From NCBI RefSeq assembly GCF_003403315.2, contig NZ_CP048407.1, forward strand, positions 2,542,001 to 2,606,000: a stretch of 64,000 nucleotides of DNA, read 5' to 3'. Position 1 is the first letter of the stretch; each line of letters begins with the position of its first letter. Made by a program: the position numbers and the translations under genes. This document shows positions 3,499 to 20,600 of this stretch, in pieces. The stretch is from Thermaerobacter sp. PB12/4term. GTDB taxonomy: Bacteria; Bacillota; Sulfobacillia; Thermaerobacterales; Thermaerobacteraceae. The notes under the pieces are model-generated. The model searched no databases. It was not told the DNA's origin and saw only the letters and a list, made by a program, of their open reading frames with translations.

Positions 3499-3610
3499 GA
3501 ACGTCATCCCCTCCCGCAGGATCTGGCCCGGCCTGGGCCTGTTACGCCAATTGGCGGGAGGCGGGTGGATTTCCTTGCGGCTTCCTTGCCGGGGGGTGAG
3601 GGGGCTCAGA

Positions 3611-4483
3611 TCAAAGGGCCTTCATCTGCTCGAAGGGGTTGCGGCAATCCAGGCAATACCACAGGCTGCGACACGGGGTCGGCCCGAAGGCGTTCTCCCG
3701 GCGGGTACGGCGGGACCCGCAGAAGGGGCAGGTGGCGGCGTAGGCAGCAAGGGTATCCAGACGCCGCAATGCCCCGCAGCCGGCAGGTCCCGGAAGCACC
3801 CGGGTGCCACCCTCTGCGAGGTCCGGTGCTCCGGCACCCGGCACCCCGGCACCGGCACCCTCGGCGTCTCCTCCCCGAAACTGTCCCGGCCCATGCGGCT
3901 CCGGCGCAGGTCGCTCGGTGGAGGGCCGCCCCGCTCCCGCGGGCGGAGGGGGTGCAATGCCAAAGGAGGCCAGCTTCCGCCGCCCCTCGGGCGTGATCCG
4001 ATCGGTGGACCAGGGCGGGCTGTAGGCGACCCGCACCTCCACCTGCCGCACGCCCGGGACCGCCTGCAACCGCCCGGCGACCGCCTGGCGGATCAGCCCC
4101 AAGGCCGGGCAGCCCACGAAGGTGGGCAGCAGCGTGACCTGTACGCTGCCGGCGCGGGCATCAGCTTCCACGCCCTCCACCATCCCCAGGTCGACGACGC
4201 TGACCACGGGGATCTCCGGATCGGATACCTCCGCCAGGGCCTGCCACAGAGCGTCCCGCAGCGCCCGGTTCTCCTGCTGCGCAGCGTCCGGACGCCGGCC
4301 GGCGGCGGGCCCGCTTCCGGCCTGGGCTCCGGTCTCGCCCGGCCGGCGGGACCCCCCGGCCCCGCCGTTCCCACGGGAGCGGTGATTCCCCTGGCACGGG
4401 GCCTGCCCGGGGGCGCTGCCGTCCCCGGGCGAACCGGCCGGCACGGATCCCGATGTCTGCGGCAACGGTCCCGTAGAACCCAC
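3611..4483 (-). CDS. paaD: Phenylacetyl-CoA epoxidase subunit PaaD
   Basis: This is a MIP18/DUF59-type protein with a C-terminal zinc ribbon, the typical PaaD architecture. After a disordered Gly-rich N terminus of about 65 residues, the DUF59 domain runs roughly 70-165 (ALAEVSDPEIPVVSVVDLGM, then TFVGCPALG). A second low-complexity linker follows. The C terminus has CPFCGS and CLDC cysteine pairs and the phrase DCRNPFEQMKAL, close to E. coli PaaD. PaaD is thought to help assemble metal centres of the PaaABC(E) epoxidase. The start is GTG 4483 with GGGGGGAGAG upstream. At 290 residues it is nearly twice the usual 165-175, because of the two linkers. No paaE reductase gene is visible in the window. 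Confidence 0.92.
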   Translation of the reverse strand: MGSTGPLPQTSGSVPAGSPGDGSAPGQAPCQGNHRSRGNGGAGGSRRPGETGAQAGSGPAAGRRPDAAQQENRALRDALWQALAEVSDPEIPVVSVVDLGMVEGVEADARAGSVQVTLLPTFVGCPALGLIRQAVAGRLQAVPGVRQVEVRVAYSPPWSTDRITPEGRRKLASFGIAPPPPAGAGRPSTERPAPEPHGPGQFRGGDAEGAGAGVPGAGAPDLAEGGTRVLPGPAGCGALRRLDTLAAYAATCPFCGSRRTRRENAFGPTPCRSLWYCLDCRNPFEQMKAL

Positions 4484-4552
4484 GGGCTCTCCCCCCCATG
4501 GCCCGGCGCCGTAGCCGGACCCGGCCTCATGGCCATGCGTCCGCCGGCCCCC

Positions 4553-5452
4553 TTACCACTCCGCCGCCGGGTCCGAGCGGTAGACCGACGTCATCTCCGC
4601 CAGCAAGGCCGTCAGGGCGGGCGAGTGGTGTCCTCGCCGGCCTCCCAGGCCTCGCTCGATCCCGGGGGCCGCCGGGCCCCCCTCGGTCCCGGGATCCGCC
4701 GGTTCCACGCCAGCCGGTTCTCCCGGTCCCGCCTGCCCCAGCACCGGTTCGGCCAGGCCGGCCTCTGCCAGCACCTGGCCAACGGCCGCCCACCACAGCC
4801 GGCGGAGCTCCTCCAGGCCGGTCCCCCGCCAGCGGGCAGCCTGCTCCTCCCCGTCTACCGGTTCGAAGAACCCGGCCGCCAGGGGCAGGGCCCGGGCGAG
4901 GGCCGACGCCAGCCGCTCCCGTGCCTCGCCGCCGGCGCGGCTGAGTTCGACCACCCACTGGCGGAAGTGGGCCTGGTGGTAAGCCTCCTCCCGGGCAATG
5001 CGGGCCGCCGCCGCGGCCAGCGGCTCGTAGGGCGATCGGGCCAGCGCCGGCCACAGCACGGCCTCGTACTCGCTGTAGAGGAAGTGGCGGGCGATCTCCG
5101 CGGCCCAATCGCCGTTGGGCTGTTCCAGCAGGACGGCGTTGCGAAAGTCCTGAGGATCCCGGCCGAAGGCCAGGGCATCGGGATCCCCGCCTCCCTGGCC
5201 GAGATCGGCGAGCAGCTGATAGAGCAGGGCGCTGTGCCCCACCTCGTCCTGGGCGATGGAGGAGAAGGCCACGTCTTCTTCCAGGTAGGGAGCCACGCCC
5301 GTCCACTCCGACGCCCGGTGGCCGGCGATCAGCTCGTCGTCGGCCAGGGCGAAGAGCAGGGCCACCAGGCCCCGGTCAGCGCCCGAGGTAGCCGCGACCG
5401 CCGGGTGGGAGGGGAGGGGTTCCATGGCGTGGGCCCGGTTCGACCTGTTCAC
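4553..5452 (-). CDS. paaC: Phenylacetyl-CoA epoxidase subunit PaaC
   Basis: This ferritin-like helical subunit is the structural partner of PaaA in the phenylacetyl-CoA 1,2-epoxidase. Recognisable segments are FALADDELIAGHRASEW, FSSIAQDEVGHSALLYQLL and REEAYHQAHFRQW. In the known enzyme PaaC has the ferritin fold but lacks a working di-iron site and stabilises PaaA. The C terminus contains a Gly/Pro/Glu-rich insertion (about residues 240-280) before the conserved end SPALTALLAEMTSVYRSDP. The GTG start at 5452 overlaps the stop of paaB by four bases (GTGA), indicating translational coupling. An internal ATG (MEPLPSH, residue 10) is an alternative. The first 14 bases around the start are shared with paaH. 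Confidence 0.93.
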   Translation of the reverse strand: MNRSNRAHAMEPLPSHPAVAATSGADRGLVALLFALADDELIAGHRASEWTGVAPYLEEDVAFSSIAQDEVGHSALLYQLLADLGQGGGDPDALAFGRDPQDFRNAVLLEQPNGDWAAEIARHFLYSEYEAVLWPALARSPYEPLAAAAARIAREEAYHQAHFRQWVVELSRAGGEARERLASALARALPLAAGFFEPVDGEEQAARWRGTGLEELRRLWWAAVGQVLAEAGLAEPVLGQAGPGEPAGVEPADPGTEGGPAAPGIERGLGGRRGHHSPALTALLAEMTSVYRSDPAAEW

Positions 5453-6159
5453 CGGTCCTCACCCCCTTGCCCGGTGCGGGCCCCAGTGCCCGTCCCGGCG
5501 GCGGACCCGTTGCCCATCCCCAGTCCGGGACCGGCGCCCTTCCCCGCGTCGCGGCCGGCAACCGCATCGGTCCCTGAACCGGCGATCCCGGTACCAGGCC
5601 TGGCCCCACCGCCCTCGTCACCGGGCGCGGCGCCCTCGGGATCTCGCCGCCCTTCCCGGTCCTGGCGCCGGGGCCCCCGGCGGACCCGCACGTGACCGCT
5701 GCGGTTGAGCACGGCACCGGGTACCACATCATCGGGTGCGCCCGGCTCGCCAGCCCGGTGGGCCGGGGCACCGGCTTCCGGCCCATCCTGCCCCGGGGAG
5801 GGACCGTGGGCTCTGACCGTGCCGCCGCCACCGACACCACCGCCGCCGCCACCGGTGCCACCGCCCGGCCCCCGGCCGAAGCGCTGCCAGAGGATCCGGG
5901 TCCGGGCAAAGCCTTCCCCCAGGCGGTACGTCTTGTCCGTGGCCGGCTGCCACCAGTCGGCGTCACCCTCGCCCACGGCTTCGATGCACGAGCGCGGCAC
6001 GATCCACAGGCTGACGTACTCCTGCCGCCGGCAGTAGAGCTGCTGGGCCAGCAGCCGGGCGTTGCGCCGGTCCCCCGCCAGCAGGCTGCCGCAGTGGATG
6101 TACGGCTCACCCCGCCGCGGCTGGCCGAAGACCTCGTAGACCTCCATGGTGACGCCCAT
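5449..6159 (-). CDS. paaB: Phenylacetyl-CoA epoxidase subunit PaaB with Gly-rich C-terminal extension
   Basis: The first 95 residues are a clear PaaB: MEVYEVFGQPRRGEPYIHCGSLLAGD, then YCRRQEYVSLWIVPRSCI. PaaB is the small subunit that bridges PaaAC dimers in the epoxidase. Known PaaB proteins are about 95-110 residues. This one continues for about 130 residues of Gly/Ala/Arg-rich sequence without recognisable structure before its stop, which overlaps the paaC start. Either the extension is real and disordered, or a frameshift has removed the original stop; the overlap with paaC favours a real extension. Two in-frame ATGs exist, at 6159 and 6147. The second gives the family-typical MEVYEVF start. 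Confidence 0.9.
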   Translation of the reverse strand: MGVTMEVYEVFGQPRRGEPYIHCGSLLAGDRRNARLLAQQLYCRRQEYVSLWIVPRSCIEAVGEGDADWWQPATDKTYRLGEGFARTRILWQRFGRGPGGGTGGGGGGVGGGGTVRAHGPSPGQDGPEAGAPAHRAGEPGAPDDVVPGAVLNRSGHVRVRRGPRRQDREGRRDPEGAAPGDEGGGARPGTGIAGSGTDAVAGRDAGKGAGPGLGMGNGSAAGTGTGARTGQGGEDR

Positions 6160-6198
6160 GGCCGGTTCGTCCCCTTCCTGGGCCGGGGTGATGACCCG

Positions 6199-7221
6199 TC
6201 AGGCGGCCGCGGCGCCGCGGGCCAGGGCTTCCCGTACCCAGCGGCTCTCCTCGTGGGAGAGGCGCCGGATGGCCAGCCGCGCCTCCGTCCTGGGTCCCTG
6301 CCCCTTGACCACGCGCCAGAATTCGTCCCAGTCGGGATCGCCGTAGACCCAGCGGCCCTGCGCTTCGTCATAGTGCAGCTCGGGGTCGGGGATCTGGAGC
6401 CCCAGGGCGCGGATCTGGGGCACGTACTTGCTCAGGAACTCCTGCCGCAGTTCCTCGTTGGTGCGGACCTTGATCCGCCACTTCATGGCCTGCTCCAGGT
6501 TGGGCGACATCTCGTCGGGCGGTCCGAAGAAGTGCAGCAGCGGCCGCCACCACCGGTTCAGCGCGTCCTGGACCATCTGCTGCTGGGCGCGGGTGCCGCT
6601 CATCAGGGTGAGGATGATGTCCTCGCCGTGCTTGAGGTGGATCGCCTCTTCGGCGCAGATCCGCCGCAGGATGCGGGCGTAGGGGGCGTAGCTGGTCTGC
6701 AGCAGCGCCGCCTGGGTCGCCAGGGCGGCCCCGTCGACCAGCCAGGCGATGATGCCCGCGTCGGCCCACGTGGGCGCGGGATAGCTGAAGACGTTGTGGA
6801 ACTTGGCCTTGCCCGCCACCAGGGCGTCCATCATGTCCTCGCGGGTGATCCCGAGGGGTGCGGCCAGGTCTTCCGCCACGCGGTAGATCAGCTGGGCATG
6901 GCCGACTTCATCCTGGACCTTGGCCATGAGGGCCAGCTTGCGGCGCAGGGTGGGCGCCCGCGGGATCCACTCCCGCTCGGGCAGGGCCCCCATGATCTCG
7001 CTGTTGGCGTGGGTCTGGATCAGGCGGAGGCACTGGCGGCGGTACTCGCTGGGCATCCAGTCGCCCGCCTCCACCTTCTCGCCCCGCTCCAGGCGGGCGG
7101 TGAACTCGGCGATGCGCTCCTCCTCCCGCCAGTCGCGGGGGCCGGCCGGCCCGGCCGGAGGCAACCCTGCCCGCTGGCCGGCTGCAACAGCGGCCTGGTC
7201 CTGCATTCCCTGGTCTGCCAT
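6199..7221 (-). CDS. paaA: Phenylacetyl-CoA epoxidase catalytic subunit PaaA
   Basis: This is the catalytic di-iron subunit that epoxidises the aromatic ring of phenylacetyl-CoA with oxygen, so the pathway is aerobic. Metal-binding motifs are visible: QDEVGH (E105, H108) and EEAIH (E191/E192, H195) in a ferritin-like helical bundle, plus family-specific stretches such as PSEYRRQCLRLIQTHANSEIMG and DPDWDEFWRVVKG. At about 340 residues it is slightly longer than the usual 310-330, owing to a short Ala/Gly-rich N terminus. The ATG start at 7221 was chosen for its very good site GGGAGGGGAAACC; the reading frame stays open about 120 codons further upstream but that part does not look like protein. 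It is the first structural gene of the operon, followed by paaB after 39 bases. Confidence 0.95.
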   Translation of the reverse strand: MADQGMQDQAAVAAGQRAGLPPAGPAGPRDWREEERIAEFTARLERGEKVEAGDWMPSEYRRQCLRLIQTHANSEIMGALPEREWIPRAPTLRRKLALMAKVQDEVGHAQLIYRVAEDLAAPLGITREDMMDALVAGKAKFHNVFSYPAPTWADAGIIAWLVDGAALATQAALLQTSYAPYARILRRICAEEAIHLKHGEDIILTLMSGTRAQQQMVQDALNRWWRPLLHFFGPPDEMSPNLEQAMKWRIKVRTNEELRQEFLSKYVPQIRALGLQIPDPELHYDEAQGRWVYGDPDWDEFWRVVKGQGPRTEARLAIRRLSHEESRWVREALARGAAAA

Positions 7222-7635
7222 GGTTTCCCCTCCCGCGGCGGCCCCGGCCGGGGCATCCGGCCCCGGGCTGCCCTTTGGGCCCGCCCAGGGCACGGGGCCA
7301 CCCGGCTGCCGGTTCGGCCGGCGGCTGCCGGTTCGACCGACGGGCCGGGCACCCCAGGACCCCGGCCGGGGACCGCTCCGTGTTTCCCCCAGGGTGACGC
7401 GTCCCCAAGACTCCCAAACAAGACCCAAGACTCCAAACCAGGACTCGCAAAACAAGCGTCTTGCGATGCCTTGAGACTTGTGGTGACTTGCAAGGCGGCC
7501 CTGAGACTTGCGATGACTTGCAAGGCACCGATGGCAACCCGCCTGGCCCAAGCCCGCTTCCAGCGCCGGGACGATCCCACCTTCCGGCACGGCTTCGTTG
7601 CGGCCATAACGCCGGCCGCCCGACCGGCACCGCCC
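7222..7635. other. paaR-paaA intergenic leader
   Basis: This 414-base gene-free stretch lies between paaR and paaA. Its half nearer paaA is GC-rich and featureless. The part from about 7400 to 7530 is less GC-rich and built of repeated CAAGTC/GACTTG words, described separately. No clear sigma-A promoter and no copy of the PaaR operator were found here, so the paaA promoter could not be placed. Confidence 0.5.
7471..7526. repeat. Pair of 26-bp direct repeats in the paaA leader
   Basis: Two near-identical 26-base units lie at 7471-7496 and 7501-7526, 23 of 26 bases equal, period 30. Each contains GAGACTTG followed by TGACTTGCAAGGC. Related words (AAGACTCC, GCGTCTTGCG) continue leftward to about 7400. 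Their position upstream of paaA suggests a regulator-binding cluster or an RNA element, but no known family was recognised. Confidence 0.65.
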
Positions 7636-8220
7636 TCAGGACGAGCCGGCCTCCAGGCCCTTGAGGATCAGCTCCGCAAAGGTGGCCGCCACATCGTCCG
7701 GTGCCAAGGGCCCGTCCGGCGAATACCACTGGTAGGCCCAGTTGACCGCCGACAACGCCAGCAGGGCCGCGAACCGCGGGTCGACCGCGCGGAACTCACC
7801 CCGGGCGACACCGTCGGCGATGAGCTCCCGCCAGCGGGCTTCATACCGGTCCCGCTTGGCCTGGATGCGGGACCGCAGGTCAGCACGCAAGAAGCGCCAC
7901 TCGTGGAAGAACACGCTGGCCGTGTCGCGGTGCTCGGCGATCACCGCCATGTGGGCGGCCAGGGCCCGCCGCAAGCGGTCCCGGGCCGCGGCCCCCTCCC
8001 TCCAGGCCTGCTCGATGCCGTCCAGGAACCGGTCGGCCGCCCGGTCCACGATCTCGAACAGCAGCTCTTCCTTGCTCTCGATGTGGGCGTAAAGGCTGCC
8101 CCGCTGCAGCTGCAGCCGCTCGGCGATGTCCTGCATGGAGGTGGCGTGATAGCCCTTCTGGCGAAAGAGCTCGCCGGCCACGGTGAGGATCTCTTCCCGG
8201 CGGGCGGTGGAACGGCCCAT
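7636..8220 (-). CDS. paaR: TetR-family transcriptional repressor, PaaR-like
   Basis: This 194-residue protein has the TetR layout. An N-terminal helix-turn-helix (about residues 9-55: REEILTVAGELFRQKGYHATSMQDIA, then GSLYAHIESKEELLFEIVDR) is followed by an all-helical ligand-binding domain. It sits immediately upstream of paaABCD in the same direction. TetR-type PaaR proteins repress phenylacetate genes and are released by phenylacetyl-CoA in Thermus and other bacteria. The assignment rests on that context and on a matching operator 36 bases upstream of the start. The ATG at 8220 has GGGAGGAGCC directly before it. The C terminus (DDVAATFAELILKGLEAG) resembles TetR proteins that control acyl-CoA metabolism. 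Confidence 0.85.
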   Translation of the reverse strand: MGRSTARREEILTVAGELFRQKGYHATSMQDIAERLQLQRGSLYAHIESKEELLFEIVDRAADRFLDGIEQAWREGAAARDRLRRALAAHMAVIAEHRDTASVFFHEWRFLRADLRSRIQAKRDRYEARWRELIADGVARGEFRAVDPRFAALLALSAVNWAYQWYSPDGPLAPDDVAATFAELILKGLEAGSS

Positions 8221-8255
8221 GGCTCCTCCCGGTTAACCTAACAAAGGTAAACCAA

Positions 8256-8683: not shown

Positions 8684-9616
8684 ATGATGGCGGAACCAAT
8701 GCAGCGCCTGACCGGGCTGCAGATGGCCTTAGGCATCGTCAACGAAGGCATGTTGTGGCTGATTTGCCAGCGGCTTGACCTCCAGCCCCGGTGCGGGCGC
8801 AAGCGGGGTCAACTGGCGAACTGGCTGTTCCGCGAAGCCTGCCGCCACCCGCAGCTGGCCCAGCGACTGGCCGCTGAACTGACCCCGTGCCTTCTGCCGG
8901 GCTACCGCCCGGGCAGCCCGCCGGAACCCCAGCAGGTGGTCAGCCTGCTCAAGCGGAGCCGCCGGAAAGGGCTGGCCCTCGGGCTGCTGTGGGCCATGGG
9001 TGATACCCTGGACGACCCGGCCTGGGCTGCCGCCTGGAACCGCTGGCTCAAGGACTCGGCCGACTGGCGCCGCCGCTTGGAGCAATACATGGCCCTGCTG
9101 AACGACCAGGAGACCGTGCAGGTTGCCCAGTCCATCGTCACCGAGGCCGAGGCCCGGCGCGACCGGATGCGGCAAGCCCTGGTCAGGATGGCCAGGTCCT
9201 ACCGCGAGGAGATGAAGCGGCTGAAGGAGACCATTGCAACCCTGGAAGAGGTCAACCGCCAGCTGGCGGCCCTGCGCCCCTTGCAGAACACCCGCATCCT
9301 GGTCGTGGGCGACCCCAACCACGCCGGCGGTTACCGGCAGGTGGTGAACCGCTACGGCGGCGACATGGTCTTCGCCGACGGCACCAGCCGCCAGTGGGTG
9401 CGCAAGGCCCTGGACGGGCGCTACGACGCCATCGTGGTGGTCACCGCCTACGGCTACCACACCACCCAGATGATGATTCAGAAACACGCTCCGGAGGTGC
9501 CTCTCTTCAACGCCCGGCGGGGCGGCCTGGGCGAAATGGAACGGGTCCTGGTCACCCAGGTGATCCCCGCCCTCTTTAAAAGGCTGAGGTCCCTGGACGA
9601 ACCGGCCTCGGCGTAG
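8684..9616 (+). CDS. DUF2325 domain protein of unknown function
   Basis: This 310-residue protein has a helical, Arg/Gln-rich N-terminal two thirds, with a likely coiled coil around residues 150-200 (EARRDRMRQALVRMARSYRE, then EEMKRLKETIATLEEVNRQL). A C-terminal DUF2325 domain starts at about 205: ILVVGDPNHAGGYRQVV, then YDAIVVVTAYGYHTTQMM. DUF2325 is a small Rossmann-like domain found in many Firmicutes proteins; its role is unknown. The start could be 8684, 8687 or 8699. The first is reported because GGGAGGGG lies about 12 bases upstream. It is transcribed alone and divergently from paaR. Confidence 0.8.
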   Translation: MMAEPMQRLTGLQMALGIVNEGMLWLICQRLDLQPRCGRKRGQLANWLFREACRHPQLAQRLAAELTPCLLPGYRPGSPPEPQQVVSLLKRSRRKGLALGLLWAMGDTLDDPAWAAAWNRWLKDSADWRRRLEQYMALLNDQETVQVAQSIVTEAEARRDRMRQALVRMARSYREEMKRLKETIATLEEVNRQLAALRPLQNTRILVVGDPNHAGGYRQVVNRYGGDMVFADGTSRQWVRKALDGRYDAIVVVTAYGYHTTQMMIQKHAPEVPLFNARRGGLGEMERVLVTQVIPALFKRLRSLDEPASA

Positions 9617-10103: not shown

Positions 10104-11225
10104 TCACGGCTCCCGGTCCACAACCACGCCCCGCTCCGCCAGCTCCTGGAAGAACGCCTCCGGGTCCGGCCCGCCCGGTGCTTCGGGCGCCAGCACCCCC
10201 GGTCCCTCAATTCGCCCCTGGGCCATCCAAAACGCTCCCAGGGCCAGCGGCACCGCCGTCAGACTCGCCATGGGCGCCGCCGCCCGGTAGCTGCGTTCCG
10301 CCACCTGGGCCCCCACCCGGCCGCGCACCCGGACGACGAGCCCGGAAGCGGGCCGGGATGGGGCCCCCACCCGTTCCAGGAGAGGAAGCAACGGTTTGAG
10401 CACCGCGCCCAGCCGCTGGCGCCGGCGGTGGGTGGCCATCAGCCCCCAGCGTCCGAAGGTGACAGCCAGCCGGTTCAGGGCGGGCTCGGCAAGGCCACCC
10501 TTCAGCCGTACCTCCTGCAGGCCGGGAAGGAATCGTGGCAACGTCACCGGTTCGGGGTGCCCGACATGAAAGACCGTCACGGCACCGAGCGGCGGTGGAA
10601 ACTCGACCCGTTCCGCCCCGGTCCCCGCAGCGACCTCCTCCCACCGTCCTGCGGCAAAGGACGTGACCCTCCCGCTGAAGATGTGCATGGTGTGGAGGAC
10701 CACGGCCCAACCCCGGGAATCCGCCGAGCTGCCCGCCCAGGCGATATGGGCCGCCTCGACCCGGTCCATCCGCTGGGCCGCATGGCGCACGCAAAGGTTG
10801 GTCAGCCCCGGCGTCCAGCCGAGACCGGTCAGGATGGTGACCCCTGCCCTGCGAGCCGGCTCGTCCAGTTCGAGGACCCGCCGGGCCGCGTCGTGATCAT
10901 CACAGAGGCTGATGTAGGGGCGCCGGGCCTCGATGGCCGCCCGGGCCAGGGGCTCTTCCAGGAGGTAGAACGGGCCCGCCGCCCCCATCGCCACATCGTG
11001 GGCCGCCATCAGCTGGGCCGCTGCCCCAGGGGCCAGGATGTCGACCGCCTCCGCAACCACCCGGCAACCTGGCGCCGCTTCTTCCGCCGCTGCGGTGGCC
11101 ACCGACCGGGCCGCCTCCAGATTCCGGTCCGCTACCGTCACTTGGGCCACACCGGGGGTCCTGGCCAGCTCCCGGACCGCCCGGCTTCCCATGTCCCCCG
11201 CCCCGCCGAAGACCACGAAGCGCAT
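10104..11225 (-). CDS. Saccharopine dehydrogenase family oxidoreductase
   Basis: This 373-residue protein opens with an NAD(P)-binding Rossmann motif (FVVFGGAGDMGSRAVREL, residues 2-19) and continues with features of the saccharopine dehydrogenase/LYS9 superfamily: VTVADRNLEAA, ARRPYISLCDD and GVTILTGLGWTPGLTNL. Members act on lysine-pathway or polyamine intermediates or are of unknown role. The local context (a dead MFS gene, a CRISPR array) gives no pathway, so the substrate is left open. The start at 11225 (ATGCGCTTC) was chosen because it places the Rossmann fold at the N terminus; the upstream open frame is low-complexity. The ribosome binding site is modest (GGGGGG). The C-terminal 40 residues are Pro/Gly-rich before FFQELAERGVVVDREP. 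Confidence 0.82.
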   Translation of the reverse strand: MRFVVFGGAGDMGSRAVRELARTPGVAQVTVADRNLEAARSVATAAAEEAAPGCRVVAEAVDILAPGAAAQLMAAHDVAMGAAGPFYLLEEPLARAAIEARRPYISLCDDHDAARRVLELDEPARRAGVTILTGLGWTPGLTNLCVRHAAQRMDRVEAAHIAWAGSSADSRGWAVVLHTMHIFSGRVTSFAAGRWEEVAAGTGAERVEFPPPLGAVTVFHVGHPEPVTLPRFLPGLQEVRLKGGLAEPALNRLAVTFGRWGLMATHRRRQRLGAVLKPLLPLLERVGAPSRPASGLVVRVRGRVGAQVAERSYRAAAPMASLTAVPLALGAFWMAQGRIEGPGVLAPEAPGGPDPEAFFQELAERGVVVDREP

Positions 11226-11271
11226 TGAGCATCCCCCCGCCGATGTGGTCGGTACTGGCAGGCTCGCCTTC

Positions 11272-11297
11272 GGCGCCCCCATGGTGGATGGGGCGCC
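11272..11297. repeat. Hairpin 1 (GGCGCC-ended palindrome)
   Basis: This 26-base imperfect palindrome begins GGCGCCCCC and ends GGGGCGCC around a GGTG loop. It is a near copy of the hairpin at 11339. It lies in the likely 5' leader of the oxidoreductase gene. Confidence 0.6.
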
Positions 11298-11338
11298 TTC
11301 CGCCGGCGGCCGACCCAGCGGTACCGCCGGCCGGCTTC

Positions 11339-11363
11339 GGCGCCCCATGGTGCATGGGGCGCC
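11339..11363. repeat. Hairpin 2 (perfect 11-bp stem)
   Basis: This 25-base perfect palindrome has stem GGCGCCCCATG with its complement around a three-base loop. Together with hairpin 1 it forms a direct pair 67 bases apart. It lacks a T-run, so an operator or RNA structure is as likely as a terminator. Confidence 0.6.
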
Positions 11364-11523
11364 CGGCCATCCAGGTCGGTTCTGGCAAGCGCGCAATGGC
11401 AGGTTCGCAATGAAGGGCCCGTCCTCCTGGAGGGGGGTCTGGGACTTGGGGATGGGATGACGGCGCATGGGACGATCGAGCATAGCCCGATGGATAGGTG
11501 GCCGGGGGAGGAGGCAAGGTGGC

Positions 11524-11573
11524 CCTGCTGTCGACCTCCGATCACGGCAAAACCCCGGGAGGTCGACAGCAGG
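11524..11573. repeat. Long inverted repeat just before the CRISPR leader
   Basis: The arms 11524-11539 (CCTGCTGTCGACCTCC) and 11558-11573 are perfect 16-base complements separated by 18 bases. It marks the boundary between the upstream region and the CRISPR leader. It could be a terminator insulating the array, or a protein-binding site. Confidence 0.65.
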
Positions 11574-11714
11574 AGGTAATTCCACCCAGTTGGCGCCACG
11601 ACTGCGTTTTTGGCTTGCCCGCATCCTGTTTTGCCCAGTATCCCTGTATCTGGATCGACAGAAAGCGGGCGCAGGAACCGTTGAAGGAGAACGGTTTCTT
11701 CGGTCGAAGATGGG
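11574..11714 (+). promoter_or_regulatory. CRISPR leader
   Basis: These roughly 140 bases precede the first repeat and are less GC-rich than the surroundings. Two facts place the leader here: repeats at this end are all perfect, while the opposite end has a run of mutated repeats ending in a strongly degenerate one. An inverted repeat AACCGTT-N7-AACGGTT at 11676-11696 lies 18 bases before repeat 1. It is a candidate for the adaptation machinery or for promoter control. The array is therefore read on the plus strand. Confidence 0.75.
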
Positions 11715-12658
11715 GTTTGTAGGGTGCCTATGAGGAATCGAAACGCCAAAAGCACATACTTGCCGTCGAACCCCTCCCCGTTTGTAGGGTGCCTATGAGG
11801 AATCGAAACCTCGATATGTGAACACTGTGGGACCCATGGCCATTGTGTTTGTAGGGTGCCTATGAGGAATCGAAACTGGCGTGGTATAATATGGGTAGTC
11901 AGGGGCGGTACGGGTTTGTAGGGTGCCTATGAGGAATCGAAACAGTTCATGAACCAGTTCACGAACCCAATCATCCTCTGTTTGTAGGGTGCCTATGAGG
12001 AATCGAAACGGCGGTACGGAATACCGTACCGCCCCTGACTACCCAGTTTGTAGGGTGCCTATGAGGAATCGAAACTTCCAGCGCCCGCCGAACTTCTTTG
12101 CGACGGGCGCCGTTTGTAGGGTGCCTATGAGGAATCGAAACCGCACAACGAAAAACCATGTTCGTCCCAGGCCAGGGTTTGTAGGGTGCCTATGAGGAAT
12201 CGAAACGCCCTCCCTTGTGGCCCGGTCGCGGCCCCCGTTTCAGTTTGTAGGGTGCCTATGAGGAATCGAAACGCCCGGATGCGGTCATCGAGCGGCTTTG
12301 GTCGCACGTTTGTAGGGTGCCTATGAGGAATCGAAACGCGGCGATCAGTCCATCGACATCGACCAGGCGCGGCGTTTGTAGGGTGCCTATGAGGAATCGA
12401 AACTTCTAAGAGCCGGCTCAGCATGGCGCCTGCCGTCAGTTTGTAGGGTGCCTATGAGGAATCGAAACGTCGGGCGGGAATTGGGGCTTTTAAACCAAGT
12501 TCGAGAGTTTGTAGGGTGCCTATGAGGAATCGAAACCTGCGCTATTGCCACGATCATTTGGGCTGGCGTCCGTTTGTAGGGTGCCTATGAGGAATCGAAA
12601 CCCGTCACCGCCACCGTTTCGCCCGCTTCGCCCGTTTGTGTTTGTAGGGTGCCTATGA
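11715..12658 (+). CRISPR. CRISPR array, segment 1 (repeats 1-14 and 5' part of repeat 15)
   Basis: The repeats are 30 bases, starting GTTTGTAGGGTGCC and ending TATGAGGAATCGAAAC; spacers are 35-38 bases. Repeat 1 is at 11715-11744 and repeat 14 at 12572-12601. Repeat 15 starts at 12640 and is broken after TATGA at 12658 by an IS1634-like element. All 14 intact repeats here are identical. Spacers 3 and 5 overlap the same target on opposite strands. The 3' tag ATCGAAAC resembles the ATTGAAAC tags of type I-B and type III arrays in thermophilic Firmicutes, so a type I-B or III system is likely. No cas gene is in the window. Confidence 0.98.
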
Positions 12659-12788
12659 CTCGGGTTTGACCGTTGACGGCCCTGCTTGGTGCCACGCCGC
12701 CCCAGGAACCCGCATGAATCAAGGGGTTTCCATGGGGCGGCGGTTCTTTTGGGTCAAAAGTGTAGTGCCACGTGTATTCGGGAAACAC

Positions 12789-12817
12789 TTGTATGGTAAG
12801 CACGAACATGCTATGAT
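12789..12817 (+). promoter_or_regulatory. Transposase promoter
   Basis: TTGTAT at 12789-12794 and TATGAT at 12812-12817 are separated by 17 bases. The transposase ATG at 12827 is only about three bases past the predicted start of transcription, so the message would be leaderless or nearly so. Confidence 0.6.
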
Positions 12818-12826
12818 GGTTGTGCC

Positions 12827-14443
12827 ATGTTCATCCGCCAGAAGACCTTCAAGAACAAAGACGGCTCCACCCGCACCTACCTCCAGCTCGTCGAGAGCGT
12901 GCGCCAGGGCGGCCGCGTCCGCCAGCGGGTGGTCGCCACCCTGGGCCGGCTGGAGGATCTTCAGGACGGCCGCCTCGATGCCCTCATCGAGAACCTGGCC
13001 CGCTTCTCCCAGAGCACCTGGCGTCGGCTCGAAGAACAGGCCGAACGTCTGAACGTCCGCTGGTCCAAGCAGTGGGGACCGGCCCTGATCTTCGAGCGCC
13101 TCTGGCAGGAGGCAGAGCTGGACAAGGCCTTCGCCGCCCTGCTCGAAGACCGCCAGCTTGCCTTCGATGTCGCCGAGGCCGTCTTCACCATGGTGCTCAA
13201 CCGCCTCACCGACCCCTGCTCCAAGCGCGGCCTGGTGCGCCAGTGGCTGCAGGGCGTCTACCGGCCCCAGGCAGAGCAGTTGGAACTGCACCACTACTAC
13301 CGGGCCCTGGATGTGTTGGCCGAGCACAAGGAGGCGATCGAGGATCGCCTCTTCGCCCGGGCTCGCGACCTGTTCTGGACCGAGGTCGACGTGGTGATGT
13401 GGGACTGTACATCCAGCTACTTCGAAGGCCGAGGGCCGGAGGGGTTGGCTGCCTACGGCTATTCCCGCGACAAACGCCCGGACCGGCCCCAGCTGGTGGT
13501 GGGCGTGCTCATGACCCGGGACGGCTACCCCATCGCCCACGAGGTCTTCCCGGGCGATACCGCCGACAAGGCGACCGTGGCGACCGTGCTGGATGCCCTC
13601 AAGCGGCGCTTTCACCTGCGCCGGGTGATCTTCGTGGCCGACCGGGGCATGGTCAGCCGTCCGATCCTGCGGGCCATCGAGGAGGCCGGGATGGAGTACA
13701 TCGTCGGCATGCCCCTGCGTCGGCACCGGGCGGCCGAGGCGGTCTTGAGCCAGCCGGGACGGTATCGCAAGGTGAACAAACAACTCCAGATCAAGCAGGT
13801 GACCCACCAAGGCCAGCGCTACATCCTCTGCCACAACCCCCTGCAGGCCGAGCACGACCGCCAGGCCCGGGAGGCGGTGCTCGCGCACCTGAAGCAGCGG
13901 ATCGAGCGCGGCCAAGCCAAGGATCTCCTGCGGAACCGCCTCGTGGCCCGTTACCTCAAGGCCCTGCCCCAGGGCGCGTTGGTGGTGAACACCGACGCCG
14001 TCAAGCGAGCCACCCGCTACGATGGGAAGTACCTGCTGCGCACCAACACCGACCTGGAACCGGAGGCGGTGGTCCGCGCCTACAAGGATCTCTGGCGGGT
14101 CGAGCGCGCCTTCCGCACCCTCAAGTCCGCCCTGGACTTGCGGCCGATGTTCCACTGGACGGAGCGGCGGGTCCGGGGGCACGTCATGGTCTGTTTCCTG
14201 GCGCTGGTGCTGGAGAGCCTGTTGTTGCGCAAGCTCCGCCAGCAAAACCCCGAGGCGAGCTACGAGGACGTGCTGAGCGACCTCGCCCAGCTCCATGCCG
14301 TGGCGGTGGAACTCGACGGCGAGACCTACCTCACCCGGACCGAGCTGGTGGGCCAAGCCTACGAAGCCTTCAAAGCCGTAGGTCTGCGGCCGCCGGCGCG
14401 GGTGCAGCCGATGCCACGTCCCGCCACGACCCCCGCCGGGTAG
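12827..14443 (+). CDS. IS1634-family DDE transposase
   Basis: This 538-residue transposase of the IS4/IS1634 superfamily starts MFIRQKTFKNKDGS with the family's YLQLVES and RVVATLGRLEDL phrases. Catalytic acidic residues are visible: D in VDVVMWDCTSSYFEG, D in VIFVADRGMVS, and E in the region LWRVERAFRTLKS preceding LDLRPMFHW. The frame is uninterrupted. The start ATG is the only good one and no strong ribosome binding site precedes it, which agrees with a near-leaderless transcript. It uses the same GC-rich codon style as the host. Confidence 0.93.
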   Translation: MFIRQKTFKNKDGSTRTYLQLVESVRQGGRVRQRVVATLGRLEDLQDGRLDALIENLARFSQSTWRRLEEQAERLNVRWSKQWGPALIFERLWQEAELDKAFAALLEDRQLAFDVAEAVFTMVLNRLTDPCSKRGLVRQWLQGVYRPQAEQLELHHYYRALDVLAEHKEAIEDRLFARARDLFWTEVDVVMWDCTSSYFEGRGPEGLAAYGYSRDKRPDRPQLVVGVLMTRDGYPIAHEVFPGDTADKATVATVLDALKRRFHLRRVIFVADRGMVSRPILRAIEEAGMEYIVGMPLRRHRAAEAVLSQPGRYRKVNKQLQIKQVTHQGQRYILCHNPLQAEHDRQAREAVLAHLKQRIERGQAKDLLRNRLVARYLKALPQGALVVNTDAVKRATRYDGKYLLRTNTDLEPEAVVRAYKDLWRVERAFRTLKSALDLRPMFHWTERRVRGHVMVCFLALVLESLLLRKLRQQNPEASYEDVLSDLAQLHAVAVELDGETYLTRTELVGQAYEAFKAVGLRPPARVQPMPRPATTPAG

Positions 14444-14523
14444 TGTAGTGGTACGCAGTCCCCGTGTGCCCAAGAAAGCCTTGTGTTTCAAGGGTTCTCA
14501 AGGATCACGGTGTCAAAGTCGAG

Positions 14524-16985
14524 TATGAGGAATCGAAACACGATCCCCAGGCCGCTTCGAACATGCGGTACGCAGGTTTGTAGGGTGCCTATGAGGAATC
14601 GAAACTCCGCAAGACTTCCATGGCATGAGGCGACCAGGTCATGTTTGTAGGGTGCCTATGAGGAATCGAAACGCGCAGATGGCGGCCCGGGAAAGTGAGG
14701 GCAGCGGCGTTTGTAGGGTGCCTATGAGGAATCGAAACCGGGACCTCGACGCCGAGCGGTCAGTCCTTGGCGCCTGGTTTGTAGGGTGCCTATGAGGAAT
14801 CGAAACCCGGCGCACCACCTCCACGGGCCGCAAGACCTGCAGGTTTGTAGGGTGCCTATGAGGAATCGAAACTTCCGGGCCGAGGACGTGCTCGCTCTGG
14901 TGTCGTGGTTTGTAGGGTGCCTATGAGGAATCGAAACCGCCCTGGGCGGCGACGCGCACCGACTCGCCCAGCGGTTTGTAGGGTGCCTATGAGGAATCGA
15001 AACGGTCGAGAACGTCCGGGTCGCCGGCTGCGAAGCCACCGTTTGTAGGGTGCCTATGAGGAATCGAAACGGCTATGCGACCTACGACGACCTGCTGGCG
15101 GCCTCCGAGGTTTGTAGGGTGCCTATGAGGAATCGAAACTGCCGTCACGATCCGCCGGCCGCGCATGCGCACCCCGTTTGTAGGGTGCCTATGAGGAATC
15201 GAAACGAGCAGCTCGTCGCCAACGGACTCAGCAACCGCGAGGTTTGTAGGGTGCCTATGAGGAATCGAAACAGGCTTTGGATGAGATGGTTACTGACCGT
15301 CTTGGGGGTTTGTAGGGTGCCTATGAGGAATCGAAACCCACCCCTCGGGAAGAAACATGCGGGCCGCCAGGCGTTTGTAGGGTGCCTATGAGGAATCGAA
15401 ACCCCATGGCTCACACCCGCCTCCCCACGATCTCACCCGAGTTTGTAGGGTGCCTATGAGGAATCGAAACTACCTGCTGGACGGCGACGGCGAGCCGGGC
15501 GCGGAGTTTGTAGGGTGCCTATGAGGAATCGAAACCGCCACCATCGGCCTCATGCTCATGGATGGGACATGGTTTGTAGGGTGCCTATGAGGAATCGAAA
15601 CCGCGGTCACAGAGGTGGTGGGACAGCGGATCGTCTTGTTTGTAGGGTGCCTATGAGGAATCGAAACCCCGGCAGCGTCTCCACCGGCCCGTAGGACTGC
15701 CAGTTTGTAGGGTGCCTATGAGGAATCGAAACGATGCGGTGCGGCGCGTACTCGCCGCTCTCGATCTCGTTTGTAGGGTGCCTATGAGGAATCGAAACGG
15801 GGCGGACGCCGATAGCCTGGATGGTCTCAACCCGGGTTTGTAGGGTGCCTATGAGGAATCGAAACACAGGGCGCCCGTGGCGCAGTATAATGGCGCCGAA
15901 GGTTTGTAGGGTGCCTATGAGGAATCGAAACCAGAAGAGCAACAGCAACAAGGTGGAAGTCATGATGAGTTTGTAGGGTGCCTATGAGGAATCGAAACGT
16001 ATGGACCCGAATCGTGTCGTGGAGCATTGTGGATCTTGTTTGTAGGGTGCCTATGAGGAATCGAAACTCTCCTCATCAATCTCAAAAATTTCAACAACTA
16101 TATGTTTGTAGGGTGCCTATGATGAATCGAAACCTTTCTAGGACCCGACAATACGGCGTATCGACTTCACGTTTGTAGGGTGCCTATGAGGAATCGAAAC
16201 GGCGCCGCACCCGGAAGTAGTAGCCGTCCCGGTCTTGTTTGTAGGGTGCCTATGAGGAATCGAAACGAAGGGCACCTCTTCCTCGGCTGCATCCACCTCC
16301 GACGTTTGTAGGGTGCCTATGAGGAATCGAAACCGGCGGCGCGATCACCGCCCAGTAGCGCCGGCCATGGTGTTTGTAGGGTGCCTATGAGGAATCGAAA
16401 CGCGGAACGGAATGGACCCCGCCAAGGTTGCCACCACGGTTTGTAGGGTGCCTATGAGGAATCGAAACCCCACGCGGTGCCCGGTGCAGTGTGCCATGTC
16501 CAGGGTTTGTAGGGTGCCTATGAGGAATCGAAACCCCGTCGAGGTCACAGAGACGAAGGGGCGCCAGCGCGTTTGTAGGGTGCCTATGAGGAATCGAAAC
16601 CACGTCGCAGGCTGGCCGAACTCGAAGCAGAGGCGCGGCGTTTGTAGGGTGCCTATGAGGAATCGAAACCCGCGACCGCTTCTTCGCCCCAGGACCGCGC
16701 CAGTGTTTGTAGGGTGCCTATGAGGAATCGAAACCCGCGTCGCCCTCTCGGGCTTAGTTGCTCTCGCAACGTTTGTAGGGTGCCTATGAGGAATCGAAAC
16801 GGGCAAGCAGGGCAAGTCGGGTGGCGGTGAAGGAGCGTTTGTAGGGTGCCTATGAGGAATCGAAACCTGCAGCCGAAGGAGACGGACCATCGCGTTCTTC
16901 GCGTTTGTAGGGTGCCTATGAGGAATCGAAACCTGACGATCACGCTCCGGGTGGTGCACGCTGCAGTGTTTGTAGGGTGCCTATG
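14524..16985 (+). CRISPR. CRISPR array, segment 2 (3' part of repeat 15, repeats 16-51, 5' part of repeat 52)
   Basis: This continues segment 1: the remainder of repeat 15 (14524-14539), then 36 complete repeats from 14576 to 16932. Repeat 52 begins at 16968 and is interrupted after CCTA at 16983 by an IS21-like element whose first two bases TG happen to continue the repeat. One repeat (number 39, 16104-16133) carries a G to T change. The spacer before it (16068-16103) is AT-rich, unlike the others. Confidence 0.98.
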
Positions 16986-17055
16986 TCAAGGCCGGTTGAA
17001 TTTTGACCCACTTCGGCCGGTTGAAAAGTGACCCACCGGACCTTGGCAATCTGGT

Positions 17056-17835
17056 TCAGTCATCCTGATTCGGGTCCACGGTGCTGCGAAGGAGACCCGA
17101 GCGACGCTTCTCTCGGAGACGGTAGCTCTCGCCCCGGATGTTGATCACGTGACTGTGATGCAGCAACCGGTCGAGGATGGCCGTGGCGATGACCGGGTCA
17201 CCGAACACCTCCCCCCAGTCGGCGAAGGTCTGGTTCGATGTGAGGACGATGCTGCCGCGCTCATACCGGGCCGCCACGAGCTGGAAGAACACCGTGGCGC
17301 CCACCTTGTCGAGGGGCAGATAGCCCAGTTCGTCGATGATCAGGAGCTTGGGCGCCAGGTAGATCCGCATCCGTCGTTCGAGCCGGCGCTCCTCGTAGGC
17401 GTTGCGTAGATCCTCGATGAGGCGGTGCATCGGCGTGAAGTAGACGCCATATCCCCGGTCGATGGCGGCGAGGCCGAGCGACACGGCCAAATGGGTCTTC
17501 CCGACGCCCGGCGGTCCCAGGAAGATCACGTTCTCGGCGTTGCCCAAAAAGCGGAGCGTGGCCAGCTCCCGAATCTGGCGGGGGTCGATGGAGGGTTGGG
17601 CCTCGAAGTCGAAGTCCTCCAGGGTCTTGCGGAACGGAAGCCGGGCCAGCTTGGTTCGTGTGTCCAGGTAACGCCGGCGTCGAACCGCGAGTTCGGTTTC
17701 CAGCAGATCCACAAGGAAGTCGGCATAGGTTACGTCCTGCTTCGCGGCGCGTTCCAGGCGCGCTTCAAGGACCTCCGCCGCATCCTTCAGCCCCAGGGCC
17801 TGCAGGTGCTGGCGGGCCTTGTCCACCGTGATCAC
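17056..17835 (-). CDS. istB: IS21-family helper ATPase IstB
   Basis: This 259-residue AAA+ ATPase has Walker A GPPGVGKT at residues 107-114, Walker B in KLLIIDELGYLPL, and a sensor-like asparagine in IVLTSNQTFADW. IstB binds target DNA and activates the IstA transposase. Its GTG start overlaps the istA stop by four bases (GTGA, 17832-17835), the usual IS21 coupling. Length and motifs are complete, so it is probably functional. Confidence 0.95.
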   Translation of the reverse strand: MITVDKARQHLQALGLKDAAEVLEARLERAAKQDVTYADFLVDLLETELAVRRRRYLDTRTKLARLPFRKTLEDFDFEAQPSIDPRQIRELATLRFLGNAENVIFLGPPGVGKTHLAVSLGLAAIDRGYGVYFTPMHRLIEDLRNAYEERRLERRMRIYLAPKLLIIDELGYLPLDKVGATVFFQLVAARYERGSIVLTSNQTFADWGEVFGDPVIATAILDRLLHHSHVINIRGESYRLREKRRSGLLRSTVDPNQDD

Positions 17836-19067
17836 CGGCGTTCACCTGCCCGAAGAAGGTCTTCGTAGACCTGGAGCGAGCGGCGCTCCACCGCCGGGCC
17901 GACGACCTGCTGGCCTTGGGGCGGCTCGGGACGTTGGGGCCCACCCAAAGCAAGGCCGTGGTACTGCTCCGGAAGGGGGATCGTCAGTCCGGGCAGCAAG
18001 GCCGGAGGGTGCCGGGCAATCACCCGGTCCCCGTCGCGGATCTCGACCTCCGTTGAGGTCGCAAACACCGTGACGTACCGGCCGCTATAACGCCAGGGCA
18101 CCCCATACCGGCTGCCCGCATACTGGACGTAGCCATCCCGACTCACCCGGCGTTCTTCGTGCAGCAGCGACGTGAAAGCCGCCAAGGGCCGAAGGGGCGT
18201 CAGATGGGCCTGCTCTTCCACCAGCCGATCGGCGGGGCGCTGCCCGGTGGTCCCGTGGAGGCGGCGATTCGCGACCTCGGCCACCCATGCCCGCACCTGC
18301 CGGTTGAGATCGGCCAGGTCGGTGAACTGGACGGCCGGCCAGAAGTGCCGCTTGAGATAGCCGATGGCTCGCTCCACCCGGCCCTTGGTCTGGGCCCGAT
18401 ACGGCCGGCACGCCCGCAGGGCAAACCCGGCAAGCAACGCAAAGTCAAGCATCCTTGGGTGGTAATCCACCTCCGCACCATGGCGGCGAAGGACGACGGT
18501 CTTCATGTTGTCGTAGAGGATCTCCTTCGGGACACCTCCCAAGGCCGCGAAGGCGTGGAGGTGACATCGTAAGAGGGTGCTCAGGTCCTGCTGTTCCACA
18601 AACTCCACGTACATCGCCCGCGAGTAACTGAGGACCATGACAAACCCGTAAACCTTCCGCCGTCGTCCCTGCAGGTCGGTGTAGGCGAACTCCCCCCAGT
18701 CGACCTGCGCCTGGGTCCCCGGCGGGAGCTCGAAGCGCACCACGGCGTGTGGGACCCGGGACGGGCGATGGGGCCGAAGGAACTCCTTGAGAATCGTCTT
18801 TCCGCCGGTATAGCCCTGGGCCCGGAGCTCCTGCAGGAGACGATTGGCATTGAAGACCCCTTGGGCCATACGCTGCTCGAGGTACGGCTTGAACGGATCC
18901 AACTTCGACGCCTTGGGCGGCCGTGGCTTGTACTGGGGTAGCTCGGGTCGGCGCAGGTACTTCCGCACCGTATTCCGGGACAACCCCGTACGGCGGGCAA
19001 TTTCCCGAACGGACAGGCCTTCGGCCTTCAGCCGCAGAATATCCATCAACGACCCACCTTTCAGCAT
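17832..19067 (-). CDS. istA: IS21-family transposase IstA
   Basis: This is an IstA transposase with an N-terminal helix-turn-helix (LKAEGLSVREIARRTGLSRN, then TVRKYL) and a DDE integrase core. Candidate catalytic residues are D in AQVDWGEFAY, D in EILYDNMKTVV, and E in TKGRVERAIGYLKRHFW. The start at 19067 has GGAGG seven bases upstream. ATG 19046 (MDILRLK) behind AAAGGTGGG is nearly as good. The open frame upstream of 19067 belongs to the element end. The protein is about 411 residues, slightly longer than the typical 390-400. It is complete and coupled to istB. Confidence 0.93.
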   Translation of the reverse strand: MLKGGSLMDILRLKAEGLSVREIARRTGLSRNTVRKYLRRPELPQYKPRPPKASKLDPFKPYLEQRMAQGVFNANRLLQELRAQGYTGGKTILKEFLRPHRPSRVPHAVVRFELPPGTQAQVDWGEFAYTDLQGRRRKVYGFVMVLSYSRAMYVEFVEQQDLSTLLRCHLHAFAALGGVPKEILYDNMKTVVLRRHGAEVDYHPRMLDFALLAGFALRACRPYRAQTKGRVERAIGYLKRHFWPAVQFTDLADLNRQVRAWVAEVANRRLHGTTGQRPADRLVEEQAHLTPLRPLAAFTSLLHEERRVSRDGYVQYAGSRYGVPWRYSGRYVTVFATSTEVEIRDGDRVIARHPPALLPGLTIPLPEQYHGLALGGPQRPEPPQGQQVVGPAVERRSLQVYEDLLRAGERR

Positions 19068-19150
19068 GAACCGGCCTCCATTCCTGGGAAGGGAATGGGA
19101 CTCGGTTCGGCGGGGTGGGTCACCTGTGATCGAAGTCAAGCCCCCAGCGA

Positions 19151-20281
19151 TCAAGCCACTCTTCGTCGACGGTGGCGATCCTCGAGGCGGTCCGGCCAAA
19201 GGGCCACGGCGACCGCGTTCCAGTCGGTCACGGCTTGGGCGACCTCAACCAGACGCCGTTGCTTTTGGACGACAAGCGTGGGCTTCGCGGCTCGGTAGGG
19301 CTGGCCTGTAAGAAGCATGCGCCAGGCGACGATGAGGAGCTTGCGTGCCAGGGCCACCACCGCCTTGTGGGGCCCGATCTGCCGCTGTTTCCGGTGGTAG
19401 AACGCGCCCAAGGGACCCTGGTCGTGACGGGCCACGGAGTGGGCCGCTTCGACGACCGCGGTGCGGAGCAGTTTGCTGCCATTCCGGCTGATGCGCCCCC
19501 GGTGGTCCTGCTCGCCGGACTGGTGGACGGACGCGTCCAGGCCAGCGTACCGCGTCACTTGCTTCGCCGTTCGGAAGCGGCGAAGATCCCCCAGGTACGC
19601 CCAGATGGTGGCCGCGGTGAGGAGCCCCACCCCCGTGATCGTCAGCAAGAGCTGAACGGCCGGCTGGTCGGCCACCTGTCGCGCGATCTCCGCTTCAATG
19701 GCCTGAATTTCGATCTCCACGGTCTCCAACTGTCGAAGGGCGCTGAGGAGGATGACGCGTTCCGCCTGCGGCAGCCGGTTCACCTCTTCCCGATCCAGCC
19801 ACTGCCGAGGGTCCACGTTCCGCGGGATGGGGAGCCCGTGGCGCTGGAAGACGGACTTGGCCTGGGTCAGGTACCGCCGCCGGTTCCGGACCAACCGGTC
19901 CCGGTATTGCAAAAGGTACCGAACCTCGCGCACCGCCGGCGGTGGCACCCACACGGCCGGCACCATCCCCAGGGCCAGCATCTTGGCGAGTCGTTCGGCG
20001 TCCACGCGATCCGTGTGCCGACCCGCCCCCAGGCGCTTCAGCTCCAGGGGGTTGGCCAGCAGGACCTTGCCGGCGTACGCCGAAAGTAAATCGTGTACGG
20101 TAAAGGCGTTTCCGGTGACCTCGAGGGCCACGCAATCGTCCGCACGCAGTTGCTGGACGAAGGTTGCCCACCCTGCATCGGTATTGGGGAACCGGAAATG
20201 CCTTCCCTTTTGTACGTCCACCTGCCATTCGCAGCCGTGGACGTACCGTTTATGAAGATCCAGCCCGAAATACCGTGGCAC
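19151..20281 (-). CDS. IS110-family DEDD transposase (recombinase)
   Basis: This 376-residue protein has the IS110 layout. An N-terminal RuvC-like DEDD domain (FGLDLHKRYVHGCEWQVDV with its first D, VALEVTGNAFTVHDLL, HTDRVDAERLAKML) is followed by a coiled-coil stretch. The C-terminal transposase_20 domain has ITGVGLLTAATIWAYLGDL and the catalytic serine region ISRNGSKLLRTAVVEAAHS. These enzymes are guided by a bridge RNA to both donor and target DNA. The start is GTG 20281 with GGGGGA upstream. The reading frame is intact. Confidence 0.94.
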   Translation of the reverse strand: MPRYFGLDLHKRYVHGCEWQVDVQKGRHFRFPNTDAGWATFVQQLRADDCVALEVTGNAFTVHDLLSAYAGKVLLANPLELKRLGAGRHTDRVDAERLAKMLALGMVPAVWVPPPAVREVRYLLQYRDRLVRNRRRYLTQAKSVFQRHGLPIPRNVDPRQWLDREEVNRLPQAERVILLSALRQLETVEIEIQAIEAEIARQVADQPAVQLLLTITGVGLLTAATIWAYLGDLRRFRTAKQVTRYAGLDASVHQSGEQDHRGRISRNGSKLLRTAVVEAAHSVARHDQGPLGAFYHRKQRQIGPHKAVVALARKLLIVAWRMLLTGQPYRAAKPTLVVQKQRRLVEVAQAVTDWNAVAVALWPDRLEDRHRRRRVA

Positions 20282-20534
20282 GGTGTTGTTCCCCCTCTCC
20301 CGGGCTCTTGGGGCGCAGACGGCGATCGCAGCGCACTCACCTGTCCGGGCTATCGGCCAAAGCCGCGCCCATGTAGGCGGTTCGCAGGAGGGGGCCGACC
20401 AGACAAAATTCCGAGCTCAAGGCCCACGACCCCTCGCGGCCGCCCTCCTGCCTGCGCCCGCCAAGGGGCCGCCTACGGATCTGGACACACCCTTACCGAG
20501 GCGCCCACGCTTGTCCTGCCGCCCGGTGGGGGCC
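20282..20534 (-). ncRNA. Candidate bridge RNA region of the IS110-like element
   Basis: This non-coding end lies upstream of the transposase. In IS110-group elements the bridge RNA is transcribed from this position. The word TCACCTGT at 20337-20344 is identical to the insertion junction at 19120-19127, which could be part of a target-binding loop. Structure was not computed, so this is a placement by analogy. Confidence 0.4.
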
Positions 20535-20600
20535 TGCACTTCGATCATGCCGACAAAATTCATCCGACCCTACTGGGTCATTTTTGCACCGGCCGTGACA

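Follow-up and report, generated by a model that had tools for sequence, protein, structure and literature searches.

Two spacers of a long orphan CRISPR array overlap in reverse complement at a hairpin-bearing sequence and almost certainly record one foreign locus

How do two spacers of one CRISPR array come to end in the same 22 bases, read in opposite directions? The question is raised by the leader-side part of the array in the window, i.e. the whole stretch of 64,000 nucleotides analyzed here. Spacer 3 (11877-11913, plus strand, 37 nt, TGGCGTGGTATAATATGGGTAGTCAGGGGCGGTACGG), the younger of the pair, follows the direct repeat GTTTGTAGGGTGCCTATGAGGAATCGAAAC at 11847-11876 (plus strand); spacer 4 (11944-11979, plus strand) separates it from the older spacer 5 (12010-12045, plus strand, 36 nt, GGCGGTACGGAATACCGTACCGCCCCTGACTACCCA). 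An earlier note on this DNA had claimed that the last 22 bases of both spacers are exact reverse complements and that they merge into 51 nt with a perfect 10-base stem and a 4-base loop, and both statements are correct. The terminal segments at 11892-11913 and 12024-12045 (both plus strand) agree in 22 of 22 positions, the merged sequence is GGCGGTACGGAATACCGTACCGCCCCTGACTACCCATATTATACCACGCCA, and the pair is the top-ranked inverted repeat in a repeat search of 10500-20000. Chance is excluded as the source of the identity, because only 5.8e-7 such 22-mers are expected from the base composition of the 73 spacers in the two arrays of the host genome, and the longest word common to two spacers in 40 shuffles of this set measured 10-13 nt. 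A search of the complete host genome (2.82 Mb) with the pair sequence retrieved spacers 3 and 5 themselves and nothing else, and a self-targeting spacer pair was rejected on this ground. Spacers 3 and 5 almost certainly record one foreign locus.

In the whole array (11715-21681, plus strand), 66 intact 30-nt repeats, GTTTGTAGGGTGCCTATGAGGAATCGAAAC or close variants of it, and two further repeats, each interrupted by insertion sequences, alternate with 67 spacers of 35-39 nt. The host genome is a single contig of 2,820,915 bases with a completeness of 99.99%. A leader lies at one end of the array and a degenerate last repeat (21652, differing at three positions) at the other; this orientation is supported by the latter and by the conservation of the bases that precede 11715. 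The position of spacers 3 and 5 at the leader end makes them young relative to the rest of the array, which upholds one half of the earlier argument “near the leader, hence recent”; their absolute recency is questionable, since the genome yielded no core cas genes. Two blocks of insertion sequences, whose borders were read in the sequence, split the array. The first is an IS1634-family element (12659-14523, plus strand; transposase 12827-14443; borders 12640-12658 and 14524-14539), which is inserted in a repeat and flanked by the target-site duplication TATGA. The second is a block of IS21 (istA/istB) and IS110-family elements (16986-20600, minus strand; with borders, 16968-20618), which is also inserted in a repeat, one base from the IS1634 site within the repeat and with the apparent duplication CCTATG. 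The IS1634-family element, 98.9% identical, sits in a repeat of both arrays of the host, and its second copy (L045, about 6236-8100) is bordered by TATGA on the right. Insertion sequences seem to land preferentially in CRISPR repeats.

Both spacer 5 and the merged 51-mer open with the perfect 10-4-10 inverted repeat GGCGGTACGG-AATA-CCGTACCGCC. Its left arm (12010-12019, plus strand) begins right at base 1 of spacer 5, the loop occupies 12020-12023 and the right arm 12024-12033 (plus strand), and spacer 3 stops exactly at the corresponding edge between arm and loop. As spacer 5 offers no base ahead of the palindrome, the stem is censored there and its 10 bp are a minimum. This truncation bears on the strands: the two spacers were most likely taken from opposite strands, a reading that requires a short arm in the invader, whereas an arm reaching at least 37 bp may turn spacer 3 into the left arm itself, on the same strand as spacer 5. 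A parallel case in the sister species G001, in which, according to spacers 15 and 24, the arm truncated in spacer 93 continues for only about four more bases and ends at about 12 bp, makes the short arm the better guess. From the earlier wording, “same foreign locus on opposite strands”, the single locus outside the host chromosome is retained, since only the two spacers match the complete genome; the opposite strands depend on the short arm.

What kind of sequence carries this hairpin? Allowing any loop, the palindrome was found in 87 stretches of species-level genomes, nearly all of them from Streptomyces, and it is absent from the viral contigs. The Streptomyces flanks form longer GC hairpins, many of which apparently lie between converging genes, as in bidirectional terminators. 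These terminator-like hairpins (GGCGGTACGG-N4-CCGTACCGCC) share the 10-bp arms of spacer 5 at about 80 loci, many with extended arms, but the flank CCTGACTACCCA occurs in none of the loci displayed, and we judge the likeness to be convergence and not homology. The palindrome of spacer 5 is a plausible high-GC hairpin. On the strand of spacer 5 it is followed by CCTGACT, with no run of T, and the bases that follow on the other strand lie outside both spacers; an intrinsic terminator is only a resemblance. The earlier interpretation as a “phage or plasmid terminator or origin” is not supported: no source was found to contain the 22-mer, so that neither PAMs nor evidence of a replication origin were obtained. 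Spacer 3 carries TGGTATAAT, an extended -10-like motif with TATAAT at 11885-11890, which precedes the palindrome on the strand of spacer 3. Judged by its sequence, this arrangement suggests a regulatory region. TATAAT is present in three of 225 spacers compared with 0.5 expected; the spacer at 15866-15901 likewise has it. A coding origin of the 51-mer may also be considered, because four of its six reading frames are open.

The search for the invader covered viral contigs, phages, plasmids, species-level genomes and relatives. The shared 22-mer is absent from the viral contigs, all species-level genomes and 150 relatives (up to two mismatches), and a distant blastn search with the merged 51-mer, part of the check proposed in the earlier note, gave no meaningful match among phages and plasmids (best phage match 18 nt, E = 4). 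Neither the unique part of spacer 3 nor three back-translated open frames of the 51-mer matched a viral contig, and the same is true for the neighboring spacers 1 and 4. Array stretches gave nothing convincing either: those searched among both phages and plasmids comprised most of array blocks one and two, and those searched among phages comprised the trailer block and half of the G001 array. Formally, the absence of the merged sequence from the genomes searched is the outcome that the earlier note itself named as refuting its biological reading; this has little force, because no array stretch searched had a convincing match. These collections apparently lack the invaders of this genus. Array stretches aligned at 71-74% over 85-99 nt with NZ_CP129218.1 and NZ_CP025075.1, plasmids of Geobacillus zalihae and [Bacillus] caldolyticus, which perhaps reflects similar repeats on plasmids.

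As far as Cas1, Cas3-HD, RAMP and Cas6 are concerned, the array is an orphan, which follows from their lack in the complete host genome. No Cas1 match (PF01867) exceeded the threshold, the sole sub-threshold match being located at 9059-9277 of the window, and no Cas3-HD, RAMP or Cas6 was found; Cas2, Cas5, Cas8, Cas9, Cas10 and Cas12 were outside this search. Thus neither cas1 nor the effector or processing genes of a functional CRISPR-Cas locus (Cas3-HD, RAMP or Cas6) were recovered. The weak Cas1 profile match in the protein encoded at 8684-9616 falls mainly in a coiled coil and was rejected: the structural model (mean pLDDT 66.9) consists of a long coiled coil and an alpha/beta DUF2325 part. 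Homologues of this protein are present in the three species with this repeat type (the host, G001 and G002) and absent from G003, which is without the repeat (n = 4). The open reading frames 3497-5695 and 5692-8241 were considered as new cas genes and judged spurious or unplaced, based on the lack of family matches and on the composition of their translations. In G001, type I-C cas genes are located about 0.7 Mb from the main array beside a different repeat. Arrays with the 30-nt repeat exist in three species, in which no matching cas genes were found.

The genus sample consists of four species (G000, the genome of the window, to G003). Repeats of this type number 137 in G001, with 119 in the syntenic array and 18 in a second array, and 19 in G002; the second array of the host has seven (G000:C1:1858156-1858587). 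The leader region (11250-11714, plus strand) is nearly identical in the host and G001 in a MAFFT alignment, but the two species have no spacer in common, the longest word found in both sets measuring 14 nt. Both arrays have therefore gained spacers since the two species separated, and the species-specific spacers document that the host array was active after this split. Re-sampling of one locus is common in G001. One family comprises spacers 15, 24, 93 and second-array 14 (L042, L170); these four related spacers derive from a locus with a hairpin, GCCGGTGTCTCA...TGAGACACCGGC, and in the genus genomes they match only the arrays themselves and scattered sites with two mismatches. Another, without a long hairpin, comprises spacers 6, 7, 45 and 117 (L042), which have CGGCCGCCCAGAT in common and differ slightly, as would be expected of spacers from divergent variants of a single invader gene. 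Partial overlaps on opposite strands were found for spacers 5 and second-array 9 and for spacers 38 and second-array 3.

The most plausible explanation of the pair, with a probability of about two in three, is the ordinary repeated capture of overlapping stretches from one invader locus by an array that is an orphan today. Two separate captures by Cas1-Cas2 would have taken overlapping stretches of 36-37 nt from a foreign locus whose inverted repeat measures 10-4-10 bp or more. We infer the insertion order spacer 5, spacer 4 and spacer 3. Most likely each prespacer came from a different strand, and a PAM would then be located at either outer end of the 51 nt. The source was probably regulatory or intergenic DNA from a plasmid or virus of this thermophile. 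These captures would have occurred while the lineage still had its adaptation genes or obtained them in trans. Repeated capture is in accordance with a reverse-complement identity far beyond chance that is confined to the two spacers in the genome, with the recurrence of one-locus re-sampling in G001, and with the growth of the arrays of both species after their split. Both strands are sampled in naive acquisition and likewise in type I-B and I-F priming (PMC10011333). Against it stand that the merged 51 nt was not met as one molecule in the collections searched, that the censored stem leaves room for same-strand capture from a longer palindrome, and that the machinery is assumed while the cas genes are absent.

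Storing both strands of one target would have a simple cost, namely a self-complementary array transcript. In folding predictions for a single strand at 37 °C, well below the growth temperature of a thermophile, spacer 5 forms the 10-bp hairpin (crRNA 5; -20.1 kcal/mol, z = -5.6), and the transcript spanning repeats 3-6 forms a 22-bp duplex between spacers 3 and 5 (-92.5 kcal/mol, z = -4.7). If the array is expressed, these predicted structures could hinder the maturation or guiding of the crRNAs.

The alternative that fares best, although it is unlikely, is primed or interference-driven adaptation, in which an interference complex guided by crRNA 5 would have attacked the invader on its return and spacer 3 would derive from the DNA degraded at that site. 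The younger spacer 3 indeed overlaps an older target, and priming of types I-B and I-F draws spacers from both strands (PMC10011333). However, Cas3-HD, Cas1, RAMP and Cas6 are missing from the genome, the intervening spacer 4 is not known to be related to the locus, crRNA 5 may be a poor guide due to its predicted self-fold, and a random overlap is likely enough. If 14 leader-side spacers stem from one invader of 5-20 kb, an opposite-strand overlap of at least 22 nt is expected by chance in about 7-27% of cases, which makes the terms “primed” and “hotspot” of the earlier note unnecessary. The latter is also not favored by the frequency of hairpins: stems of at least 7 bp were found in 10 of 204 spacers compared with 10.7 expected from the genomic background, and a general enrichment was rejected.

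This balanced count also weighs against a second, rather improbable scenario, according to which hairpins or cruciforms of the invader are opened or stall replication forks and the resulting ends feed Cas1-Cas2. Palindromes would then be sampled repeatedly, with spacer borders at the edges of arms or loops. The only two re-sampled pairs sharing at least 20 nt (3/5 in the host and 24/93 in G001) each include a spacer whose first base lies within a hairpin arm, and spacer 3 ends right at the border of arm and loop. Flush stems of at least 8 bp were seen twice compared with 0.1 expected, and stems of this length are associated with re-sampled membership (hypergeometric p about 0.002), both tests being post hoc and based on two loci only. 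In Escherichia coli, the spacer pattern is shaped by SbcCD, which cleaves hairpins (PMC6896009); this speaks for such a route, whereas the G001 family of spacers 6, 7, 45 and 117 was re-sampled without a long hairpin. If palindromes are adaptation hot spots, such pairs and the parallel G001 family would provide a ready test set.

A long palindrome or hairpin end, such as the end of a linear element or an inverted-repeat junction, is very unlikely. The palindrome would greatly exceed 10 bp, spacer 5 would span its turn, spacer 3 would cover one arm as far as the loop, and it would be impossible to tell the strands apart. The unbroken, censored stem at the first base of spacer 5 and the flush end of spacer 3 at the loop are compatible with it, but flush borders may also result from chance or PAM placement, no source was found in the collections searched, and the parallel arm in G001 stops at about 12 bp according to its relatives. 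Least credible is a fold-back artefact, in which a prespacer end was folded and copied so that the first arm of spacer 5 never existed in the invader: spacer 5 adds to the sequence of spacer 3 only the 4-nt loop and a perfect arm copy, and G001 spacer 93 has a perfectly complementary arm at the site of a one-base difference in its relative, spacer 24, yet natural perfect palindromes of the same sequence exist elsewhere, as in Streptomyces, the natural variant spacer 15 of G001 already has the same base as spacer 93, and the mechanism is hypothetical for this array.

Compared with known systems, the host array resembles orphan, cas-less arrays in having repeats, spacers and a leader without a core cas gene found, but it is long (67 spacers) and its spacers are species-specific. 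With type I-B and I-F primed adaptation it shares a younger spacer beside an older target and the mixed strands, but no core cas genes were found in the host genome. A close counterpart of the repeated capture favored here is pMGB1 in Sulfolobus solfataricus (PMC4390879). Whereas the element and its CCN PAMs are known there and the locus is seen here from the spacers alone, both cases comprise different spacers from overlapping stretches of one element, and the pair of spacers 3 and 5 by itself represents one more case of the repeated sampling of an invader, of a familiar kind.
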